Source: Chloroflexota bacterium
GTDB taxonomy: Bacteria > Chloroflexota > Anaerolineae > Aggregatilineales > Ch27
Reading direction: 5' to 3'
DNA length: 64,000 bases
Assembly: GCA_019873685.1 (NCBI GenBank)
Contig: JAIOAT010000017.1
Span: forward strand, 1-64,000
Shown here piece by piece: positions 1-9,482 of this stretch; the first letter of the stretch is position 1, and every line of letters starts with the position of its first letter. The notes under the pieces were generated by a model. It made no database searches. It was not told the DNA's origin and saw only the letters and a list, made by a program, of their open reading frames with translations. The position numbers and the translations under genes were made by a program.

Positions 1-965
1 AGACGCTTGCCGGGCTGCCGGTAGCGGCGCTCACCGGTCGGATCGGCCCGGCGCTGGAGACAATGCAGGCGCATCTGGCCGCGCTGGCCGCCTCGCCGGA
101 CCTGGAGGGTGTCTACTACCTGCCGGAGGAACTGCCGGCGGAACTGAGCGCGGCGATCGCCGGGGCCAGCGCCGGCCTGGATACCGAAGGACTGCTTGCT
201 GGCTTCCTGGGCCGCTATCTATCCGCCGATCGCACAGCGGCCCGCTTTGAGATCATCCCGCGGGATAACCCTTATGGCGACGAAGTGACCGCCCTGGTGC
301 ATACCCTGCGTGAACTGCTTCCGGGCGGAGAGGCCGCCGTCTCCGGCGTGCCGGTGGTGACTACTGATCTGCGCGACACCATGGAGCGCGACATGCTGCG
401 CTCGTTCTCGCTGGTGCTGCTGGGCATCCTGATCGTACTGGTGGTGCTGCTGCGGGCGCTGATCAGCCCGCTTTACCTGATCCTGACCATCCTGCTCAGC
501 TACGGGGCCACCATGGGCATCACCCGCCTGTTCTCCAGCCTGGTCTTTGGCGTGGACGCCCTGACCTGGTGGGTGCCGTTCTTCATGTTCAGCATGTTGA
601 TCGCGCTGGGGATGGACTACAACATCTTCCTGATGGGGCGGGTCAAGGAAGAAGCGGCGCAACACGGGATGCGCGAGGGCGTACACCGCGCTGTGGCCGC
701 CACCGGGCCGATCATCACCTCCGCCGGGCTGATCATGGCCGGGACGTTCGCGGCCATGCTGGCCGGGTCGGTAACTGGCCTCAAACAACTGGGCTTCGCC
801 GTCGCGGTAGGCGTGCTGCTGGACACGTTCGTGATCCGCACGGCGCTGGTCCCGGCTATCGCCGTGCTGCTGGATCGCTGGAACTGGTGGCCGGGCAAAG
901 CGCCGCGCGTCCCGGCGGGGAGCCAGGCCGGGGCTAGCCACGCGCCGGTCAGCGGAGATCGGTAA
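1..965 (+). CDS. MMPL/RND-type membrane transporter, C-terminal part (5' truncated)
   Basis: The reading frame is open from base 3, so the gene starts before the window; about 320 residues remain. The first 120 or so residues are a soluble, extracytoplasmic-looking segment. Then come several hydrophobic helices, including a run rich in L, V and I near base 400-470, and the MMPL-like stretch GMDYNIFLMGR after a membrane segment, which in the family is the GxxxDY helix associated with proton coupling. The protein ends in a short basic, proline-rich tail. MMPL proteins export lipids, siderophores or drugs. The substrate cannot be told from this fragment. No partner gene is visible on this side. 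Confidence 0.85.
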   Translation, partial: TLAGLPVAALTGRIGPALETMQAHLAALAASPDLEGVYYLPEELPAELSAAIAGASAGLDTEGLLAGFLGRYLSADRTAARFEIIPRDNPYGDEVTALVHTLRELLPGGEAAVSGVPVVTTDLRDTMERDMLRSFSLVLLGILIVLVVLLRALISPLYLILTILLSYGATMGITRLFSSLVFGVDALTWWVPFFMFSMLIALGMDYNIFLMGRVKEEAAQHGMREGVHRAVAATGPIITSAGLIMAGTFAAMLAGSVTGLKQLGFAVAVGVLLDTFVIRTALVPAIAVLLDRWNWWPGKAPRVPAGSQAGASHAPVSGDR

Positions 966-1122
966 AAAACGGGAGCGACGAACAGGCGGCAGGGGAAGCG
1001 GCGGCCCTCCACACAGTAGAGGGTCGATCATCACCTGCCGGTATTCGGCGTTTATCTTTCTCTCCTTGAGTTTTGCTCACCCCTGCCCTACGGGGACGCA
1101 GGCGGCGCGGGGCGCTTCCTGC

Positions 1123-1128
1123 TACAAT
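1123..1128 (+). promoter_or_regulatory. Possible -10 box (TACAAT) for the sugar isomerase gene
   Basis: TACAAT lies 41 nt upstream of the chosen start codon at 1170. No good -35 box is seen 16-18 nt upstream. The call rests on the same box recurring at a similar distance upstream of many genes in this window. Confidence 0.35.
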
Positions 1129-1169
1129 GCTTCCAGCGCAATATCTCTTGAGCGATGGGAGAAAGGCCG

Positions 1170-2234
1170 ATGCTTCTGGATTCCCCTGAGCGCTTTGCCG
1201 CGCTCGATCCGCAGGCCATGCTGAGTCACATTCACGCGCTGCCTGACCAGGTGGAAAACGCCTGGAAGGCCGCCCATGATCTGCCTCTGCCGGAAGATTA
1301 CCGCCGCCCCCGCCTGATCGTCCTCAGCGGCATGGGCGGCAGCGCCATCGGCGGCGATTACCTGGCCGCACTGGTGGCCCACGCCAGTCCTGTGCCGATT
1401 CTCGTCATCCGCGGCTATGACCTGCCGGCTTATGTCTCCGGCAGCGACGTGCTGGTGATTGCCAGCAGCAACAGCGGCAACACGGAAGAGACGCTGGCCG
1501 CCTACGCTGAGGCCGGGCGGCGCGGAGTCCGGCGGCTGGCGATCACCACCGGCGGGGAACTGGCCGCCCGCGCGGCGGCGGATGGCGTGCCGCTGTGGCA
1601 GTTCACCTACAGCAGCCAGCCGCGCGCCGCCCTGGGCTGGAGCTTTGGGCTGCTGGTCGGGCTGGCGGACCGGCTGGGGCTGGCGGGTGGGCTGGCCGCC
1701 GATGTGAGCGAGACTGTTACCCTGCTGCGGCAGGAACGGGCTGCCTTCGGCCCGGAGGTGCCCGCCGAGCGCAACGGGCCAAAGCGTTATGCCGGGCAGT
1801 TCTGCGGGCGGATCGGCCTGATCATGGGCAGCGGGATCATGGCTCCGGTCGCCCGCCGCTGGAAAGGCCAGATCAACGAGAACGCCAAGAACTGGGCCGA
1901 ATTTGACGAGCTGCCGGAGCAGAATCACAACGGCGTGGCCGGCACAGAAATGCCGGAGCGCGGCCTGGAACAGATCTTCTGCATGTTGCTCCGCTCCAGC
2001 TACGATCATCCCCGGGTTGCCCTGCGCCATGACCTGACCTACCGCCTGTTTCTGCAACAGGGTATCAACACCGATACGTTCGTGGCTCGCGGGCAGAGCC
2101 GCCTGGCCCAGATGCTCAGCGCCACCCAGTTCGGCGACTACATGAGCTTTTACCTGGCCATGCTCAACGAGGTCGATCCGACGCCGGTGCCGCAGATCGA
2201 GAACCTCAAGGCTGGTCTGGCGCGGGCGGGGTAA
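1170..2234 (+). CDS. Bifunctional phosphoglucose/phosphomannose isomerase (SIS domains)
   Basis: Product of 354 residues that interconverts glucose-6-P or mannose-6-P with fructose-6-P in the cytoplasm. The N-terminal SIS domain shows GMGGSAIGGDY and then SSNSGNTEE, the phosphosugar-binding serine/threonine loop of SIS enzymes. The C-terminal half has NENAKNWAEFDELPEQNHN, typical of the bifunctional archaeal/bacterial PGI/PMI family, whose usual length is about 300-350. An ATG at 1155 is also in frame, but the GGGAG at 1158-1161 sits 8 nt before the ATG at 1170 and overlaps the upstream one, so 1170 is preferred. A possible -10 lies at 1123. Confidence 0.88.
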   Translation: MLLDSPERFAALDPQAMLSHIHALPDQVENAWKAAHDLPLPEDYRRPRLIVLSGMGGSAIGGDYLAALVAHASPVPILVIRGYDLPAYVSGSDVLVIASSNSGNTEETLAAYAEAGRRGVRRLAITTGGELAARAAADGVPLWQFTYSSQPRAALGWSFGLLVGLADRLGLAGGLAADVSETVTLLRQERAAFGPEVPAERNGPKRYAGQFCGRIGLIMGSGIMAPVARRWKGQINENAKNWAEFDELPEQNHNGVAGTEMPERGLEQIFCMLLRSSYDHPRVALRHDLTYRLFLQQGINTDTFVARGQSRLAQMLSATQFGDYMSFYLAMLNEVDPTPVPQIENLKAGLARAG

Positions 2235-2285
2235 TGCACCCCGCGCCGCTGCGAATCACCGACTGTTTCCGGAGGAGAGAAACGT

Positions 2286-3293
2286 ATGAAAGTTCTGTTT
2301 ATCGGCGGCACGGGCAAGATCAGTACAGCGGTCAGCCGCCTGGCAGTGGAGCGCGGCATCGACCTCTACCACCTCAATCGCGGCCAGCGCGGGGTCAGCC
2401 TGCCCGGTGTGACCACCCTCACCGCTGACATCACCCGCCCGTCGGAGGTCGCCCGCGTGCTGGAAGGCTACCGCTTCGACGCGGTGGTGGACTGGATCGC
2501 CTTCACCGAGCCGGACATCGAGCGCGACCTGAGCCTGTTCCGGGGGCGGGTCGGGCAGTACGTGTTCATCAGCTCGGCCTCGGCCTACCAGAAGCCGCTC
2601 GCCAGCCCGATCATCACCGAGTCCACTCCACTCTATAATCCGTTCTGGCAATACTCCCGCAACAAGATTGCCTGTGAGGAGCGCCTGATGCGCGCCTACC
2701 GGGAGGAAGGCTTCCCCATCACTATTGTGCGCCCCTCCCACACCTACGACTCCAACTTCCCGATCGCTATCGGCGGCTGGGATACCTACACCCTGCCCGA
2801 CCGTTTGCTGCGCGGCGCGCCGATCATCGTTCATGGCGACGGCACATCGCTGTGGGTGGTCACCCATTCGCGGGACTTCGCCAAAGCCTTTGTGCCGCTG
2901 CTGGGCCATCCGCAGGCCATCGGCCAGGCGTTCCACATCACCTCCGACCAGGTGCTGACCTGGAACCAGATCTACACCACCCTGGCGGAAGCGCTGGGGG
3001 TCGAGCCGAAGATCGTCCATATGCCATCGGATTTCATCGCCCGGCTGGAGCCGGAAATCGGCGCGGGCCTGCTGGGGGATAAAGCCCACAGCGTGATCTT
3101 CGACAACACCAAGATCAAGCGGCTGGTCCCGGAGTACACCGCCACGATCCCGTTTCACCTGGGCGTGCGGGAGACGCTGGCCTGGTTCCAGGCCGATCCC
3201 GCCCGCCTGCGCGTGGACGAGCGGGTTAACGCGCAGATGGATCGCCTGATCGCAGCTTACCGGGCCGCGACGGACGCCGATCCAATTTCCTGA
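2286..3293 (+). CDS. NAD-dependent epimerase/dehydratase family protein
   Basis: Product of 335 residues. The N-terminus has the extended-SDR nucleotide-binding motif FIGGTGKIS, and a later YSRNKIACE stretch supplies the YxxxK catalytic pair (Y-S-R-N-K). It resembles the mRNA-binding/isoflavone-reductase-like branch of extended SDRs that act on nucleotide sugars or small ketones. A strong GGAGGAG lies just before ATG 2286. It follows the isomerase by 51 nt on the same strand, so the two may be co-transcribed and may both act in sugar metabolism. The substrate is unknown. Confidence 0.82.
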   Translation: MKVLFIGGTGKISTAVSRLAVERGIDLYHLNRGQRGVSLPGVTTLTADITRPSEVARVLEGYRFDAVVDWIAFTEPDIERDLSLFRGRVGQYVFISSASAYQKPLASPIITESTPLYNPFWQYSRNKIACEERLMRAYREEGFPITIVRPSHTYDSNFPIAIGGWDTYTLPDRLLRGAPIIVHGDGTSLWVVTHSRDFAKAFVPLLGHPQAIGQAFHITSDQVLTWNQIYTTLAEALGVEPKIVHMPSDFIARLEPEIGAGLLGDKAHSVIFDNTKIKRLVPEYTATIPFHLGVRETLAWFQADPARLRVDERVNAQMDRLIAAYRAATDADPIS

Positions 3294-3313
3294 AGCACAC
3301 GGAGCACACGACA

Positions 3314-3709
3314 GTGGGAAACTATTTCAGCAACCTGCAGGGCCACCAGTTCATCAGCCTGACGACTTTCCGCCGCACAGGGACGGCTGTCGCGACGCCG
3401 GTCTGGTTCGCCGAGGTCGGCGACCGGCTGTATGTGACCACCGACCCTGACGCCGGCAAGGTCAAGCGCATCCGCCACACGGCGCGGGTGACGATCGCCC
3501 CCTGCACCTTCCGGGGCCAGACGCTCGGCCCGACGCTGGAAGCGCGGGCGCGCCTGCTGACCCCGGCGGAATACGGCGCGGCGGAGGCGGCGCTCAAGGC
3601 CAAGTACGGCCTGCAGTGGACCGTCCTCACCCTGCCCGAACGGCTGCGCGGGCGCGCCGCGGAACGCGCCTTCCTGGAGATCACGCCGCCAGCGGAGGGC
3701 GGCGACTGA
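3314..3709 (+). CDS. PPOX-class (split beta-barrel) flavin/F420-dependent oxidoreductase
   Basis: Product of 131 residues, the usual length for the single-domain pyridoxamine-phosphate-oxidase-like barrel. The pattern of GTAVATPVWF, then DRLYVTTDPDAGKVKRIRHT, then VTIAPC is typical of the PPOX class often annotated as F420-dependent. The start is GTG at 3314, with GGAG nine bases upstream. It lies 20 nt after the epimerase and 18 nt before the GNAT, suggesting a four-gene run. Whether the cofactor is FMN, F420 or heme cannot be decided here; F420 genes are not in the window. Confidence 0.75.
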   Translation: MGNYFSNLQGHQFISLTTFRRTGTAVATPVWFAEVGDRLYVTTDPDAGKVKRIRHTARVTIAPCTFRGQTLGPTLEARARLLTPAEYGAAEAALKAKYGLQWTVLTLPERLRGRAAERAFLEITPPAEGGD

Positions 3710-3727
3710 GACGGAGAAGACCCTGCC

Positions 3728-4315
3728 ATGCCTGAGGAAAGCCAGCTCGAATTCAGGCCGGTGACTGCCGCCGAGTGGGATGACCTGCAAACGCTCTTCG
3801 CGGAGCTGGGATCGCTGCAGGGCTGCTGGTGCATGTGGTGGCGGGTCAGGCGGGCGGATTTCGAGCGCCAGTTCGGGGAAGGCAACCGCCAGGCCCTCAA
3901 ACAGATCATCGACTCCGGCCAGGTGCCGGGCATCCTCGCGTACCATCATGGACAGCCGATCGGCTGGTGCAGCGTCGCTCCGCGGGAGGCGTTCCCGGTG
4001 CTGGATCGCTCGCCTGTGCTCAAGCGGGTGGATGACCGGCCGGTCTGGTCGATTGTCTGTTTTGTGGTGGCCAGGGCGTACCGCCGCCGGGGACTGATGA
4101 CCGCGCTTATCCGCGCCGCCGTTGCCTATGCGGCAGGCCAGGGGGCGCGGATCGTGGAGGCGTACCCGATCCTGCCGGAAGCAAGCGCCGATCCGCGCTG
4201 GCTGGTGTTCAGCGGCGTGCGCTCCGCCTTTGAACGGGCCGGGTTTGTGGAGGTGGCGCGCCGATCGCGGGTTCGGTGTATCATGCGATACATCATCACC
4301 GATGGGGAAGCCTGA
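3728..4315 (+). CDS. GNAT family N-acetyltransferase
   Basis: Product of 195 residues. The acetyl-CoA loop is seen as ARAYRRRGLMTALI (the R/Q-x-x-G-x-G/A motif in modified form), preceded by the beta strand VWSIVCFVV. The N-terminal part has WCMWWR, a signature of a widespread but poorly characterised GNAT subgroup. GGAGAAG precedes the start by a normal distance. It could acetylate a small molecule or peptide; the substrate is unknown. Confidence 0.78.
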   Translation: MPEESQLEFRPVTAAEWDDLQTLFAELGSLQGCWCMWWRVRRADFERQFGEGNRQALKQIIDSGQVPGILAYHHGQPIGWCSVAPREAFPVLDRSPVLKRVDDRPVWSIVCFVVARAYRRRGLMTALIRAAVAYAAGQGARIVEAYPILPEASADPRWLVFSGVRSAFERAGFVEVARRSRVRCIMRYIITDGEA

Positions 4316-4352
4316 ACAGGCTGCTGGCGGCGCGAGCCAGGAGGCAGGAGGA

Positions 4353-4805
4353 ATGAGCGAGCGCGTGCGCTGGCTGGACGAAGGACGGACGCTGCTGCTA
4401 GTGGACTTGAGCCTGGAACCGGACCGAACCAGCATCAGCATCGAGGAGCGGATTGCGTTGCTGCTGGAAGCGGCGCGGCTGGCCCGGACGGTGGAGCATC
4501 CGGTGGATCTGCTGGTTGATCTGCGTCGCGGGCGTATACCGGCGCGGGGCAACTGGTTGCATGGCCTGCGCCAGCTGAACCAGGAACTGCCGCCACAGAC
4601 TGGCCTGGTGGTAGTTGTCAGGGCGCCGCGGCCTGCGCTGTTCCGCCATACGCTGAACGCTCTGCGGCGTATTCAGCGCCTGCACTCGCGGGGAGTACAC
4701 CTGGTCAATACCCTGGCGGAAGCGCGGGCCTTGCTGGGTGCGGAGCGCATCCCGGCGGAACTGGACGATGCGCCGGGCGAGGACGAAGCCGCCGCCAGCA
4801 GGTAA
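4353..4805 (+). CDS. Small conserved protein with STAS-like pattern, function unknown
   Basis: Product of 150 residues. The reading frame is open further upstream, but an AGGAGGA immediately before ATG 4353 marks the start. The alternation of strands and helices (TLLLVDLSL, then a helix, then VDLLVDLRRG, then TGLVVVVRAP, then a helix) resembles SpoIIAA/STAS-type small regulatory domains. I do not recognise a defined family. The C-terminus is acidic and probably disordered. The start region lies inside a short copy of the GCCAGGAGGCAGG repeat seen elsewhere in the window. Confidence 0.6.
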   Translation: MSERVRWLDEGRTLLLVDLSLEPDRTSISIEERIALLLEAARLARTVEHPVDLLVDLRRGRIPARGNWLHGLRQLNQELPPQTGLVVVVRAPRPALFRHTLNALRRIQRLHSRGVHLVNTLAEARALLGAERIPAELDDAPGEDEAAASR

Positions 4806-4884
4806 GGGGGCGGGAGGCGATATGTGGGTGGCATCCCGCGCCCTGAATTGAGCTGTAAATCGCTGGAAAGAAGGTCATTACAGG

Positions 4885-5991
4885 ATGGCGCAATATTTCA
4901 TTAACCTCTTCTCCCCGGAAACTTATGAAGCTTTTTCCAGGTCAGATCGCTCGGTTAGCGGTCACCGGGCACGGCACAGGAACGTGGCCAACCGCGTTCA
5001 GCCAGGAGATCGGCTGGTCTGCTACCTGACCAAACTCTCGCGCTGGGTGGGCATTCTGGAAGTGCTCAGCGGGCCGTATGAGGATCACACCCCGATCTTC
5101 ACTGAAGCTGATGATCCCTTCGTGATCCGGTTTCGCGTCCGGCCACTGGTGTGGCTCCCGATGGAGCAGGGGATTCCCATTCGCGATCAGCGCGTCTGGA
5201 ACAGGCTTTCGTTCACCAGGGAAGTCGACCCCGAATCCTATGTCTGGACAGGCCGGCTGCGGAGAAGCCTGGTCCATCTGGATGAAGATGACGGCACTTT
5301 TCTGGAAAATCTCCTGCTGGAGCAATCGCGCGTTGGTCAGGTTTTCCCGATCGATGAGCGTCTGGTTGCCAGGCTGACCAGGCACACCGTGCGGCGAAGG
5401 GACAGAACCGTGACCGTCTCCGTGCCAACCAGCGAGGCAGATGAGGAAGGGACGTTGCCAGCCCCGGAAACCGACGTTCGCGAATCCATTCGCATTCAGG
5501 CGCTGCTGGCTGACATTGGTAGCCAGATGGGGATGAAGATCTGGTTGCCCCGCAATGACCGGGCGGCGGTTATGGCTGAGCGGATGCCGGGCAGCCCTGA
5601 ACCCCTCAAAGAATTGCCCCTCAACTACGATGAAACCACCCTGCGGACTATCGAGCAGATCGACGTGCTGTGGCTGAAAGGGCGGGCCATCATCCGCGCC
5701 TTTGAGGTCGAGCATACCACTTCGATTTATTCCGGCATCCTGCGGATGGCTGACCTGCTGGCGTTGCAGCCCAACATGGACATTAGCCTGCACATTGTCG
5801 CGCCGCTGTCACGCCGGGAAAAGGTGATGCAGGAATTGCGTCGCCCGGTCTTTTCGCTGCTGGAAAAAGGGCCGCTGTACAAGCGTTGCACGTACATCTC
5901 CTATGACAGTGTGCGCGAGATTGCCCATTTGAAACACCTGCCCTATCTTTCCGACAGCGTGCTGGATGCATACGCTGAAAAAGCTGAATAG
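4885..5991 (+). CDS. EVE-like (PUA-fold) domain fused to a PD-(D/E)xK-like nuclease domain; candidate modified-DNA restriction protein
   Basis: Product of 368 residues. Residues 1 to about 130 look like an EVE/PUA-type domain: YFINLFSPETYEAF at the start, then GDRLVCYLTKLSRWVGILEV, then an F-x-V-R-P-L strand; known EVE domains read modified bases in DNA or RNA. After a charged linker (about 170-200), residues 200-340 show a nuclease-like core: helix with E200, D260 in EQIDVLWL, strand I269-E276 ending in FEVEH, then an Arg-rich helix. D260-x13-E274-x-E276 fits a PD-(D/E)xK variant in which the lysine is replaced. The gene stands alone and ends at a bidirectional terminator; its composition looks somewhat richer in A+T than its neighbours, hinting at transfer. 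It could instead be an RNA-acting protein. Confidence 0.65.
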   Translation: MAQYFINLFSPETYEAFSRSDRSVSGHRARHRNVANRVQPGDRLVCYLTKLSRWVGILEVLSGPYEDHTPIFTEADDPFVIRFRVRPLVWLPMEQGIPIRDQRVWNRLSFTREVDPESYVWTGRLRRSLVHLDEDDGTFLENLLLEQSRVGQVFPIDERLVARLTRHTVRRRDRTVTVSVPTSEADEEGTLPAPETDVRESIRIQALLADIGSQMGMKIWLPRNDRAAVMAERMPGSPEPLKELPLNYDETTLRTIEQIDVLWLKGRAIIRAFEVEHTTSIYSGILRMADLLALQPNMDISLHIVAPLSRREKVMQELRRPVFSLLEKGPLYKRCTYISYDSVREIAHLKHLPYLSDSVLDAYAEKAE

Positions 5992-6037
5992 CCCCGGTTG
6001 CCCGCTCTTCCCCGTGTGATTGCACCGGCAACCGGAC

Positions 6038-6087
6038 AAAAACCGCCGCCCTCGGGGCCATCGCTGACCCGGAGGGCGGCGGTTTTT
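6038..6087. terminator. Bidirectional intrinsic terminator
   Basis: A 16-bp perfect stem, 6038-6053 paired with 6072-6087, with A5 on the left and T5 on the right. It lies between the EVE-nuclease gene (plus) and folE (minus), so it can end both transcripts. Confidence 0.9.
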
Positions 6088-6126
6088 CGGTGCAACCCGG
6101 CCCCAGAGCCGGGCGCACGGCCTGCC

Positions 6127-6783
6127 TTAGATCAGGCTCTCCGTGCCCAGCGAGCGCTGCACATGGCTGAGGAACTCGTTGCGCGTTTTCTCGTTGGTCT
6201 CAAAAGCGCCCAGCAGGTGGCTGGTGATCATGCGGGCGTTGTGCTTCTTGACTCCGCGCATCATGGCGCACATGTGCGCACCTTCCACCACCACCCCCAC
6301 GCCCAGCGGGTTGAGCGTGTCCATCAGGAAGTTGGCAATCTGGGCGGTCATGCGCTCCTGCACCTGCAGGCGGCGGGCAAACAGGTCAACGATGCGCGGG
6401 ATTTTGGACAGGCCAACCACCTTGTTGCGGGGGATGTAGCCCACGTGCGCCCGCCCGACGAACGGCAACATGTGATGCTCGCATAGCGAGTAGAACTCGA
6501 TGTCGGTGACCAGCACCATCTCCTGGTACTCGACATCGAACAGGGCGTCGTTGATCACCTTCTCTGGATCGGTGTAGTAACCGGCCAGCAGTTCCTCGTA
6601 CATGCGCGCCACCCGCTTGGGCGTGTTCAGCAGGCCATCGCGGTTTGGGTCCTCGCCCACAGCTTTGAGCAGCGTACGCACGGACTGCTCGACCGCCGTG
6701 CAATCCAGGCTCAGGTTGAGGTCAATGTCGTATTCTTCCAGGAACTGAGTCTTGTTGCCGTTAAATACCTGAATGTCGCTCAT
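6127..6783 (-). CDS. folE: GTP cyclohydrolase I
   Basis: Product of 218 residues that converts GTP to 7,8-dihydroneopterin triphosphate, the first step of folate and pterin synthesis. The zinc and active-site motif CEHHMLPF is present, followed by GYIPRNKVVGLSK and the late ARMITSHLLG. An in-frame codon exists 22 residues upstream (6849), but family length and the MSDIQVF start favour ATG 6783, with GGGAG ahead of it. It is transcribed away from folB-folK across a shared intergenic region. Confidence 0.95.
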   Translation of the reverse strand: MSDIQVFNGNKTQFLEEYDIDLNLSLDCTAVEQSVRTLLKAVGEDPNRDGLLNTPKRVARMYEELLAGYYTDPEKVINDALFDVEYQEMVLVTDIEFYSLCEHHMLPFVGRAHVGYIPRNKVVGLSKIPRIVDLFARRLQVQERMTAQIANFLMDTLNPLGVGVVVEGAHMCAMMRGVKKHNARMITSHLLGAFETNEKTRNEFLSHVQRSLGTESLI

Positions 6784-6876
6784 GTTGACTGTTCTCCCTC
6801 CCGACCGGGCGGGGAGCAGGTCGTCGACCCTCTGGGTCGATCTGCACACCCGTCATAGATTTATCGGTCAATATCT

Positions 6877-6900
6877 CTACAAATCCTGTACACTTTGTAG
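6877..6900. promoter_or_regulatory. Operator-like inverted repeat between folE and folB
   Basis: CTACAAA at 6877-6883 and TTTGTAG at 6894-6900 form a perfect 7-bp inverted repeat with a 10-nt spacer (17 bp centre to centre). It sits in an A+T-rich island in the divergent folE/folB promoter region. This geometry suits a dimeric repressor, but the regulator is unknown. Confidence 0.45.
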
Positions 6901-6913
6901 TTTTACGATAGCA

Positions 6914-6953
6914 CAGACCGGGCGAATTAGGAAGCCCCCGGCCTGTTTTATTA
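6914..6953 (+). promoter_or_regulatory. Hairpin plus T-run upstream of folB (possible attenuator or terminator)
   Basis: CAGACCGGGC (6914-6923) can pair imperfectly with GCCCCCGGCCTG (6934-6945), followed by TTTTATTAT. It lies about 85 nt upstream of folB on the folB strand. It could end a short leader transcript, or it could be incidental. Confidence 0.35.
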
Positions 6954-7037
6954 TCGAATTCTCATGCGCCTGGCTGCAAATGGGAATGCCGGGCGTCCTG
7001 CTGTATGATCGAAGCCACTGAATCGAGGAGAAACAGC

Positions 7038-7472
7038 ATGAAAGACCTCATCCACATCCAGAACCTGCGCCTGCGCTGCTACATTGGCTTTGCCGAGCAT
7101 GAGCTGCGCGAGATGCAGGATGTCGTGATCAGCATGTGGCTGTCCACCGATCTGCGCCCGGCGGGGGCCAGCGACGATCCCGCCGATCTGCTCAACTACC
7201 GCACGGTCAACAAAGCCGTGATCCGGGCGGTGGACGGCGCGCGCTTCAACACAGTTGAGGCGCTGGCGACGGCCATTGCGCGGGTCGCCATCACGGAGTG
7301 CGGCGTCGAGAAGATCCGGGTGGCCGTGTACAAGCCGGGCGCGTTGCGCTTCACTGACAGCGTGGGCGTGATCATCACCCGGCGACGCCGTGACTTCCTG
7401 CCAAAGAAGGCACGCCGAAAGGCTGCCAAAGCTGCGCCGGAAGCCCCGCCGGAGGGCGCGGATGAAGGCTGA
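7038..7472 (+). CDS. folB: Dihydroneopterin aldolase
   Basis: Product of 144 residues that converts 7,8-dihydroneopterin to 6-hydroxymethyl-dihydropterin plus glycolaldehyde. The start MKDLIHIQNLRLRCYIGFAEHE, the Y-x-T-V-N-K-A stretch (NYRTVNKAV) and the TVEALAT motif are typical. The C-terminal KPGALRF is the conserved KPxAL. ATG 7038 is preceded by CGAGGAG. A lysine/alanine-rich tail follows the folded domain. It overlaps folK by 11 nt, indicating translational coupling. Confidence 0.93.
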   Translation: MKDLIHIQNLRLRCYIGFAEHELREMQDVVISMWLSTDLRPAGASDDPADLLNYRTVNKAVIRAVDGARFNTVEALATAIARVAITECGVEKIRVAVYKPGALRFTDSVGVIITRRRRDFLPKKARRKAAKAAPEAPPEGADEG

Positions 7473-8019
7473 GCCGCCCCGGATACATCGCGTCTATCTG
7501 TCGCTTGGTTCCAACATCGACCCGGCGGCCAACCTGCGGGCATGCCTGAACCTGTTGCGGGCCAGAACGCGGTTGATCGCCGTCTCGCCCGTTTACGAGA
7601 CGGCTCCGGTTGGCTTCACCGCCCAGGCGAACTTCCTCAACGCGGCGGCGCTGGTCGAAACCGACCTGACGCCGGAGGCCTTCCGCGCAGCGGTGATCGT
7701 GCCGATCGAGGGGGCGCTGGGGCGCGTGCGCGACCCGGCCAACAAGAACGCGCCGCGTACAATCGACCTGGACATCAGCCTGTGGGATGAGGCCGTCTTT
7801 GACTTCGGGGAGAAACCCTGGCACGTGCCGGATCGGGATATTGTCCGCTTCAGCCATGTGGCCCGCCCGCTGGCTGACCTGGCGCCGGATTACGTGCATC
7901 CCGAAGATGGGCGCACGCTGGCTCAGATCGCGGCCAGCCTGCCCGCGGAAGGGCTGATCCTGAAGTGGACGCCGGGGAGCAGCGAGTGGGGCGTTCCGGG
8001 TGGGGCTTCCGGACGGTGA
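7462..8019 (+). CDS. folK: 2-amino-4-hydroxy-6-hydroxymethyldihydropteridine pyrophosphokinase
   Basis: Product of 185 residues that transfers pyrophosphate from ATP to 6-hydroxymethyl-dihydropterin. The HPPK signature is clear: VYLSLGSNID near the N-terminus, VYETAPVGF, and the PRTIDLDISLW segment with the two metal-binding aspartates. The ATG at 7462 lies inside the end of folB. folP is not adjacent. Confidence 0.93.
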   Translation: MKAEPPRIHRVYLSLGSNIDPAANLRACLNLLRARTRLIAVSPVYETAPVGFTAQANFLNAAALVETDLTPEAFRAAVIVPIEGALGRVRDPANKNAPRTIDLDISLWDEAVFDFGEKPWHVPDRDIVRFSHVARPLADLAPDYVHPEDGRTLAQIAASLPAEGLILKWTPGSSEWGVPGGASGR

Positions 8020-8074
8020 GGCAGAAGGCAGACCGCCTCCGCACCACCCGGCAGGCACGGCAGGACCGCGCCGA

Positions 8075-8656
8075 TCATGCCAGCGATTCTCTCGCTCCTG
8101 CCACGGCGGGATGCTCCAGCACGCCGACAACCTGGAACCAGGGCAGCTCCGGGCCGGGGTTGTGGTAGAGCGTCATACCCAGGCGGCGCATCACCGCCTG
8201 GGAAGCGCTGTTGTCGTATTCGGTGGTGGCGACCAGCCGCCGGACGTTCAGCTCGGCGAAGGTGAACTCGACCAGCGCGCGGGCCGCTTCGGTGGCGTAA
8301 CCCTGGCGTTGATGCGCCGTCCGGATCGCCCAGAACAGCCCGAACTCCGGCGTGATCAGGTGCGGCCCTGCTTCGCCGCGCAGCGCTCCCCACGGCACGC
8401 CGGCGGGAACCAGCCCGACCGATCCAATCGCAACATCATCGCCGCGCAGGGCGACGGCATAATCGCCATAAGGCGGCTGGTACAGACGGGCCAGTTCGCG
8501 GTAGCTGGCGATCGTCCAATCCAGCCAGCGGCGGGTATCTTCCAGCGTGTCATCGCTGCCGAAGGCTTCCGCCATCAGGGCATGACGGGCCGCCAGATCG
8601 GCAGGCCGGTACTGGCGGATGACCAGCCGGGCGGTGTACAGAGGCGGGATGCTCAT
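8075..8656 (-). CDS. GNAT family N-acetyltransferase (RimJ/RimL type)
   Basis: Product of 193 residues. The pattern TARLVIRQYRPADL at the start, the acetyl-CoA loop AHQRQGYATEAARALV and the late NSASQAVMRRLGM are typical of the RimJ/RimL branch. GGAGGTCAT lies directly before ATG 8656. Downstream of pyrH by 73 nt and on the same strand. It could modify a ribosomal protein N-terminus or a small molecule; the sequence does not decide. Confidence 0.82.
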   Translation of the reverse strand: MSIPPLYTARLVIRQYRPADLAARHALMAEAFGSDDTLEDTRRWLDWTIASYRELARLYQPPYGDYAVALRGDDVAIGSVGLVPAGVPWGALRGEAGPHLITPEFGLFWAIRTAHQRQGYATEAARALVEFTFAELNVRRLVATTEYDNSASQAVMRRLGMTLYHNPGPELPWFQVVGVLEHPAVAGARESLA

Positions 8657-8729
8657 ATGACCTCCGGCGCTCTAAGGATGGCGTCCGGATCGTTGGCGCG
8701 GCGCCCGGCCAGGGCGGATGAGGCGGGCG

Positions 8730-9482
<753 letters not shown>

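Follow-up and report, generated by a model that had tools for sequence, protein, structure and literature searches.

The window, by which we mean the whole 64,000-nt stretch of DNA analysed here, carries on its plus strand an EVE-nuclease fusion gene (4885-5991), an ORF of 368 amino acids whose ATG start lines up with that of most relatives. An AlphaFold2 model of the protein, computed from an alignment of 61 sequences, reaches a mean pLDDT of 90.4 and shows a confident N-terminal and a confident C-terminal part joined by a disordered linker. The N-terminal part (residues 1-155; 4885-5349, plus strand) is an EVE domain of the PUA superfamily and a putative modified-base reader, and the C-terminal part (residues ~195-368; 5467-5988, plus strand) is by profile and fold a PD-(D/E)XK-type nuclease domain. 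The variable linker between them (residues ~165-195; 5377-5469, plus strand) falls below pLDDT 50 at residues 174-189, and mean column identity is 0.45 over residues 151-195.

Assignment of the EVE domain rests on a Pfam match above the curated cut-off (PF01878 on residues 10-94, E 5e-6, 27 bits versus a cut-off of 23) and on its EVE/PUA-like fold. A profile built from 38 family EVE domains matched PH1033 (1wmm) among PDB sequences at E 1.5e-9 over residues 1-143, as well as MJECL36 at 5e-8, and in structure comparison the N-terminal part superposed best on PH1033 (132 residues, 2.2 A, Z 16.6), followed by YTH domains (Z ~12-13), with YTH m6A readers ranking high. Six residues of the domain, D42, Y47, L108, T111, W121 and D136, are invariant in the family alignment. 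The sole NCBIfam match, PRK00809, covers only the EVE region and scores 42 bits, below its cut-off of 139; with Pfam yielding EVE only, we rejected a housekeeping or RNA-modification protein as the identity of the whole.

The nuclease domain is without a Pfam model of its own, and its module gave no match to the Pfam Mrr catalytic domain and nothing real in a profile search of PDB sequences (best hit ribosomal S15, E 0.16). It is, however, matched over residues 199-328 by the PADLOC type II restriction enzyme model REase_II (E 1.2e-12), and contains a predicted catalytic motif, D260-x13-E274-x-E276 (5662-5712, plus strand), in which ExE replaces ExK. This motif is invariant in all 61 aligned sequences and is also kept in two plasmid-borne distant relatives. 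In the model of the window protein, D260 precedes a strand at 261-265 and a second strand at 268-275 ending at E274, with E276 two residues further on, a helix at 281-294 and a strand at 301-306, an order that corresponds to the canonical PD-(D/E)XK arrangement. Replacement of the usual lysine by glutamate has a precedent in BamHI (PMC4081073).

Because EVE/YTH chains filled the top of the list when the full model of the window protein was searched, leaving the nuclease part untouched, we examined the nuclease fold through the C-terminal domain of a relative (L044), a stand-in that is 63% identical to the window domain. This domain was closest to the R.BspD6I small subunit (2p14, Z 8.3) and Nt.BspD6I (2ewf, Z 8.1-8.2), superposing over 140-147 residues at 3.9-4.0 A with ~10% identity, followed by Hna (Z 7.8), EcoT38I (6.7), SgrAI (6.7), SdaI (6.6) and 2vld (6.6), and also NucS. 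Nearly all of the top-ranked chains are PD-(D/E)XK enzymes, mostly DNA restriction enzymes; Foldseek on the L044 model gave a best E of 0.17. Since many independent restriction enzymes agree over the same span (L044 residues 250-427) and the motif is present as well, the fold call is firm though the individual Z values are middling. The structural order in the window model, the invariance of the motif in 61 rows and the fold matches of the L044 domain thus assign the modelled domain to the PD-(D/E)XK superfamily. Identity as an EVE-HNH enzyme of the VcaM4I type was rejected, as Pfam gave no HNH match and the nuclease domain resembles PD-(D/E)XK enzymes instead.

These results bear out the architecture proposed in the preliminary description, which had read the protein as an EVE-like domain fused to a PD-(D/E)xK-like nuclease with D260, E274 and E276 in an ExE layout and had set the domain limits, correctly within a few residues, at 1-165 and 200-368. 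The profile and structure searches it had suggested for each half agreed on EVE and, through REase_II and the L044 stand-in, on the nuclease, and neither of the outcomes that it had named as contrary, a model lacking a nuclease core or a whole-protein match to a housekeeping or RNA-modifying family, was found.

A species-specific slot between a STAS-like gene and folE

The gene lies within a species-specific segment (4809-6035) that is flanked by sequence shared with G127, a sister species in the same genus. By blastn, the two chromosomes are collinear over 281-4808 (88% DNA identity) and 6036-9000 (90%), and homology stops between these flanks. The slot begins just past the stop codon (4805) of a STAS-like ORF and extends up to an inverted repeat, with folE on the far side. 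The upstream ORF (4383-4805) encodes a 140-aa protein that reads as a STAS-type or similar small domain; it has no significant Pfam match and is conserved in G127 and in G299. The inverted repeat (6038-6087), at which similarity to the sister resumes, has 23-nt arms that are 91% complementary, with runs of A and T at its flanks. Judged by its sequence, it is probably a bidirectional terminator between the EVE-nuclease gene and folE, and it was not reported by a terminator scan. A DNA repeat search at the slot edges found no transposon direct repeats.

At the same position, the sister species carries an unrelated gene for a 405-aa PDDEXK_4 protein (L103:4220-5437; G127:C5, ~168219-169436) that matches PF14281 at 6.6e-33 and PADLOC PDC-S26 at 1.3e-124, the label PDC-S standing for single-gene candidates in phage defence. 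The GC content of this gene, 0.496, is far under that of its genome. No PDDEXK_4 gene was found in the window genome, and the EVE-nuclease is absent from the sister species and from three other members of the family that were searched. A single small slot at which two chromosomes differ, with a stand-alone nuclease in each, looks like a site where small defence genes are exchanged, and its sharing with a different single-gene defence candidate offers a clear-cut natural example of such exchange between closely related chromosomes. Other genera of the family were uninformative about the slot, as synteny is lost in them.

Composition and gene content of the region are also as the preliminary description had noted. 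It had called the gene somewhat richer in A+T than its neighbours, and its GC content is indeed 0.581 versus 0.656 for the whole window, with GC3 of 0.70 versus 0.81-0.86 in three neighbouring genes. It had further seen no methyltransferase or restriction subunit nearby, and PADLOC gave no match at E 1e-5 for any of the nine proteins encoded around it (1155-8656). Its description of a single-gene layout holds in the window and extends to the relatives described below.

Relatives, reader swapping and spread

A scan of GTDB contigs yielded 68 loci, 41 of which (in 41 GTDB genomes) have the EVE plus nuclease architecture, intact or near-intact, at 44-65% identity. Mean majority-residue frequency is higher in the nuclease part (0.75, rising to 0.86 over residues 250-325) than in the EVE part (0.62). 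Five homologues (L038, L041, L060, L063 and L064) appear split into two frames, a pattern that could reflect either genuine decay or faulty assembly, and the active-site motif of L060 is degraded.

In other relatives, the nuclease module follows a different N-terminal domain. One (L043) joins it to Mrr_N (PF14338, E 1.4e-23), a domain that forms the N-terminus of an established type IV enzyme. Twelve sequences forming one clade (SH-aLRT 96) carry a 220-residue helical domain, for which a fold search gave a hint of 8-oxoguanine glycosylase at Z 5.9, below a meaningful level, and Pfam gave no support for an HhH-glycosylase-like assignment. The helical N-terminal domain of L055 resembles, as judged by eye, McrB N-terminal regions, and L061 carries yet another N-terminal domain of no assigned family. 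A distant form of the nuclease (27-28% identity) is fused in L067 and L068 to an N6/N4 DNA methyltransferase related to PglXI. Still more distant relatives of the nuclease domain are common on plasmids, many of them conjugative (64 records from Enterococcus, 14 from Sphingobium and 10 from Listeria, besides others), where their annotation reads either type II restriction endonuclease or hypothetical protein. The best explanation for a nuclease paired with several DNA readers, and also with a DNA methyltransferase, is that it serves as a restriction module for DNA.

Neighbour clustering at the 68 loci found no family common to more than five loci, and we therefore rejected an operon partner. 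The commonest neighbour families read as type I restriction subunits, located beside the helical-domain form and one EVE form. PADLOC on 141 neighbours of EVE-type loci returned single matches per family only (BrxL, PglZ, GajA/B, type I and III subunits), and on 73 neighbours of the non-EVE forms it recovered recurring type I specificity and methyltransferase genes; most copies of the family lie outside obvious defence islands. Taken together, the clustering and PADLOC scans indicate that the EVE form is a stand-alone gene that sometimes sits within defence islands. No cognate methyltransferase is encoded alongside it, be it among the nine neighbours in the window or as a conserved companion at the 68 loci, which is the layout of a type IV enzyme.

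Carriers of the EVE-nuclease span at least 15 named phyla. Within the host's class, 14 of 298 genomes contain any match at E 1e-20 and four contain the full-length protein. A quick tree of the nuclease, in which many forks are weakly supported, implies that phylum changes at least 22 times across its 42 EVE rows. Two IMG/VR contigs carry a copy, one (L083, 6641-9098) with a serine recombinase gene directly upstream and the other (L084, 78-6508) beside tail tape-measure and other tail-type genes, as named by reading their sequences; some copies may thus travel on phages or integrative elements. A phage-specific family was nevertheless rejected, given that neither the PHROGs profiles nor 50,697 phage records gave a match, though the two IMG/VR contigs are positive. 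Its occurrence across phyla, the mixed tree, the IMG/VR copies and the shared slot together constitute the distribution of a horizontally moved defence gene, patchy and mobile and housed at variable loci, as anti-phage defence genes are.

A broader reading of the family, which we put forward tentatively and hold at somewhat under even chances, is that the C-terminal domain represents a distinct kind of plug-in cassette, a nuclease that has been combined repeatedly with EVE, with Mrr_N, with a helical domain (possibly McrB- or HhH-glycosylase-like) and, in a distant form, with a methyltransferase, and that has spread in single-gene units over ~18 phyla, its EVE form reading a modification other than plain 5mC, such as a hypermodified phage base. 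We found no prior description of reader-swapping of this nuclease module or of the slot exchange. The swapping of readers on one nuclease module makes for a testable statement on the evolution of type IV enzymes.

Proposed activity, alternatives and target base

We consider it quite probable that the gene product is a type IV (modification-dependent) restriction endonuclease made up of a single protein, acting alone and encoded at a small defence-exchange site; the analysis thereby supports the restriction system of the preliminary description as the best explanation. In this proposal, the gene would have been acquired horizontally into the small slot between the STAS-like gene and folE. The N-terminal EVE domain would bind DNA and flip out a modified base, and the C-terminal domain would then cut the DNA nearby through D260, E274 and E276, the last filling the position that lysine normally occupies, as glutamate does in BamHI. 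Cutting would be independent of NTP and would probably be carried out by a dimer with Mg2+ or Mn2+. A protective methyltransferase would be unneeded, because unmodified host DNA would not be a target. Cutting, base flipping, dimerisation and phage defence are thus functions that we infer for the protein, and the division of labour, in which the EVE domain reads the modified base and directs the PD-(D/E)XK domain to a nearby cut, is proposed by analogy with VcaM4I.

Among the alternatives, the one that survives best, although we regard it as improbable, is a nuclease of DNA repair or quality control whose EVE domain recognises a damaged or deaminated base and whose PD-(D/E)XK domain nicks beside it, in the manner of NucS/EndoMS or EndoQ. 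Resemblance of the L044 domain to 2vld, a Pyrococcus repair endonuclease, is compatible with such a role, as are the strong conservation of the sequence and the many loci without defence neighbours. A repair function fits poorly with a gene that is patchy even inside one genus, that swaps places with a defence candidate in its slot and whose tree ignores phylum, or with relatives that exchange the N-terminal reader and show no recurring repair-gene neighbour.

An RNA-directed effector, in which the EVE domain would recognise a base modification, either in tRNA or in the RNA of a phage, and the nuclease would cut nucleic acid to abort infection, seems to us less probable still. EVE domains elsewhere, like the similar YTH fold, bind modified RNA (PMC7641849), YTH m6A readers appear high in the fold search, and a stand-alone gene would suit such an effector; the fold matches of the nuclease, however, are mostly DNA restriction enzymes, and PD-(D/E)XK domains fused to Mrr_N or to DNA methyltransferases, both of which occur among the relatives, act on DNA. 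Least probable of all is a conventional type II-like nuclease, sequence-specific or non-specific, in which EVE merely positions the DNA and cutting is independent of modification, since, despite the type II model matched by PADLOC and the type II annotation of some plasmid relatives, no methyltransferase is nearby in the window or conserved in the family, and a type II enzyme lacking such protection would kill the cell.

Returning to the modification-dependent enzyme, we considered which base it may read. No C5-cytosine methyltransferase was found in the host genome, which has several N6/N4 methyltransferase matches, a combination that fits modified cytosine as the target. In the other carriers, however, C5-cytosine methyltransferases are present in 20 of 41 genomes, with ten matches in one (raw counts, with no matched background rate), which makes context-free cutting of 5mC unlikely for the family. 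The simple idea of a conflict with 5mC is therefore suggestive in the host genome and is not upheld across carriers. The candidate targets that are left are 5mC within a particular context, 5hmC or one of its derivatives, and another hypermodified phage base. If the activity is confirmed, the family would provide a widespread, single-gene, NTP-independent enzyme that is directly testable on phages with modified bases, and possibly a tool for mapping modified DNA.

Comparison with known systems

Putative type IV enzymes of EVE-PD(D/E)XK architecture were described as a varied class by Bell, Wolf and Koonin in 2020 (PMC7641849, Fig. 7), so that the novelty of the gene is lower than the preliminary description implied. 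With both domains fused in one protein, the window protein belongs to this class and has the same core, predicted role and scattered phyletic pattern; the main text of that study does not single out the present subfamily, and membership here refers to shared architecture. No experimentally studied EVE-PD(D/E)XK enzyme was found in the literature searched, most subscription journals lying outside the reach of the search.

EVE-HNH enzymes, in contrast, are experimentally established. The EVE domain of VcaM4I accommodates flipped 5mC or 5hmC in a hydrophobic pocket formed by P24, W82 and Y130, and cleavage is left to the nuclease domain (PMC7897488). Both proteins have an N-terminal EVE reader, a linker and a C-terminal nuclease in a single chain without a methyltransferase (PMC7897488), but the nuclease is HNH in VcaM4I and of PD-(D/E)XK type here, and the three pocket residues are not clearly kept. 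The solved VcaM4I structure was not among the sequence-profile matches of the family EVE domains; in a profile alignment to PH1033 only, the position of W82 seems to be I81 in the window protein, which suggests that pocket chemistry may differ and that base specificity need not match that of VcaM4I.

CMoRE, a single-component GIY-YIG type IV enzyme for which phage defence was shown experimentally in 2026 (PMC12923530), likewise combines separate sensor and nuclease domains in one modification-dependent gene product, features that are predicted from sequence for the window protein; it differs in having an N-terminal GIY-YIG nuclease and another, C-terminal, sensor domain (PMC12923530). Among the nuclease folds compared, the closest, as seen through the L044 domain, is that of the R.BspD6I small subunit and the catalytic domain of Nt.BspD6I, although the BspD6I enzymes are a type IIS nickase and heterodimer whose recognition is sequence-specific and not modification-dependent. 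The link to Mrr-type enzymes runs through the relative in which the same nuclease module is joined to Mrr_N, whereas the window protein has an EVE domain in that place.
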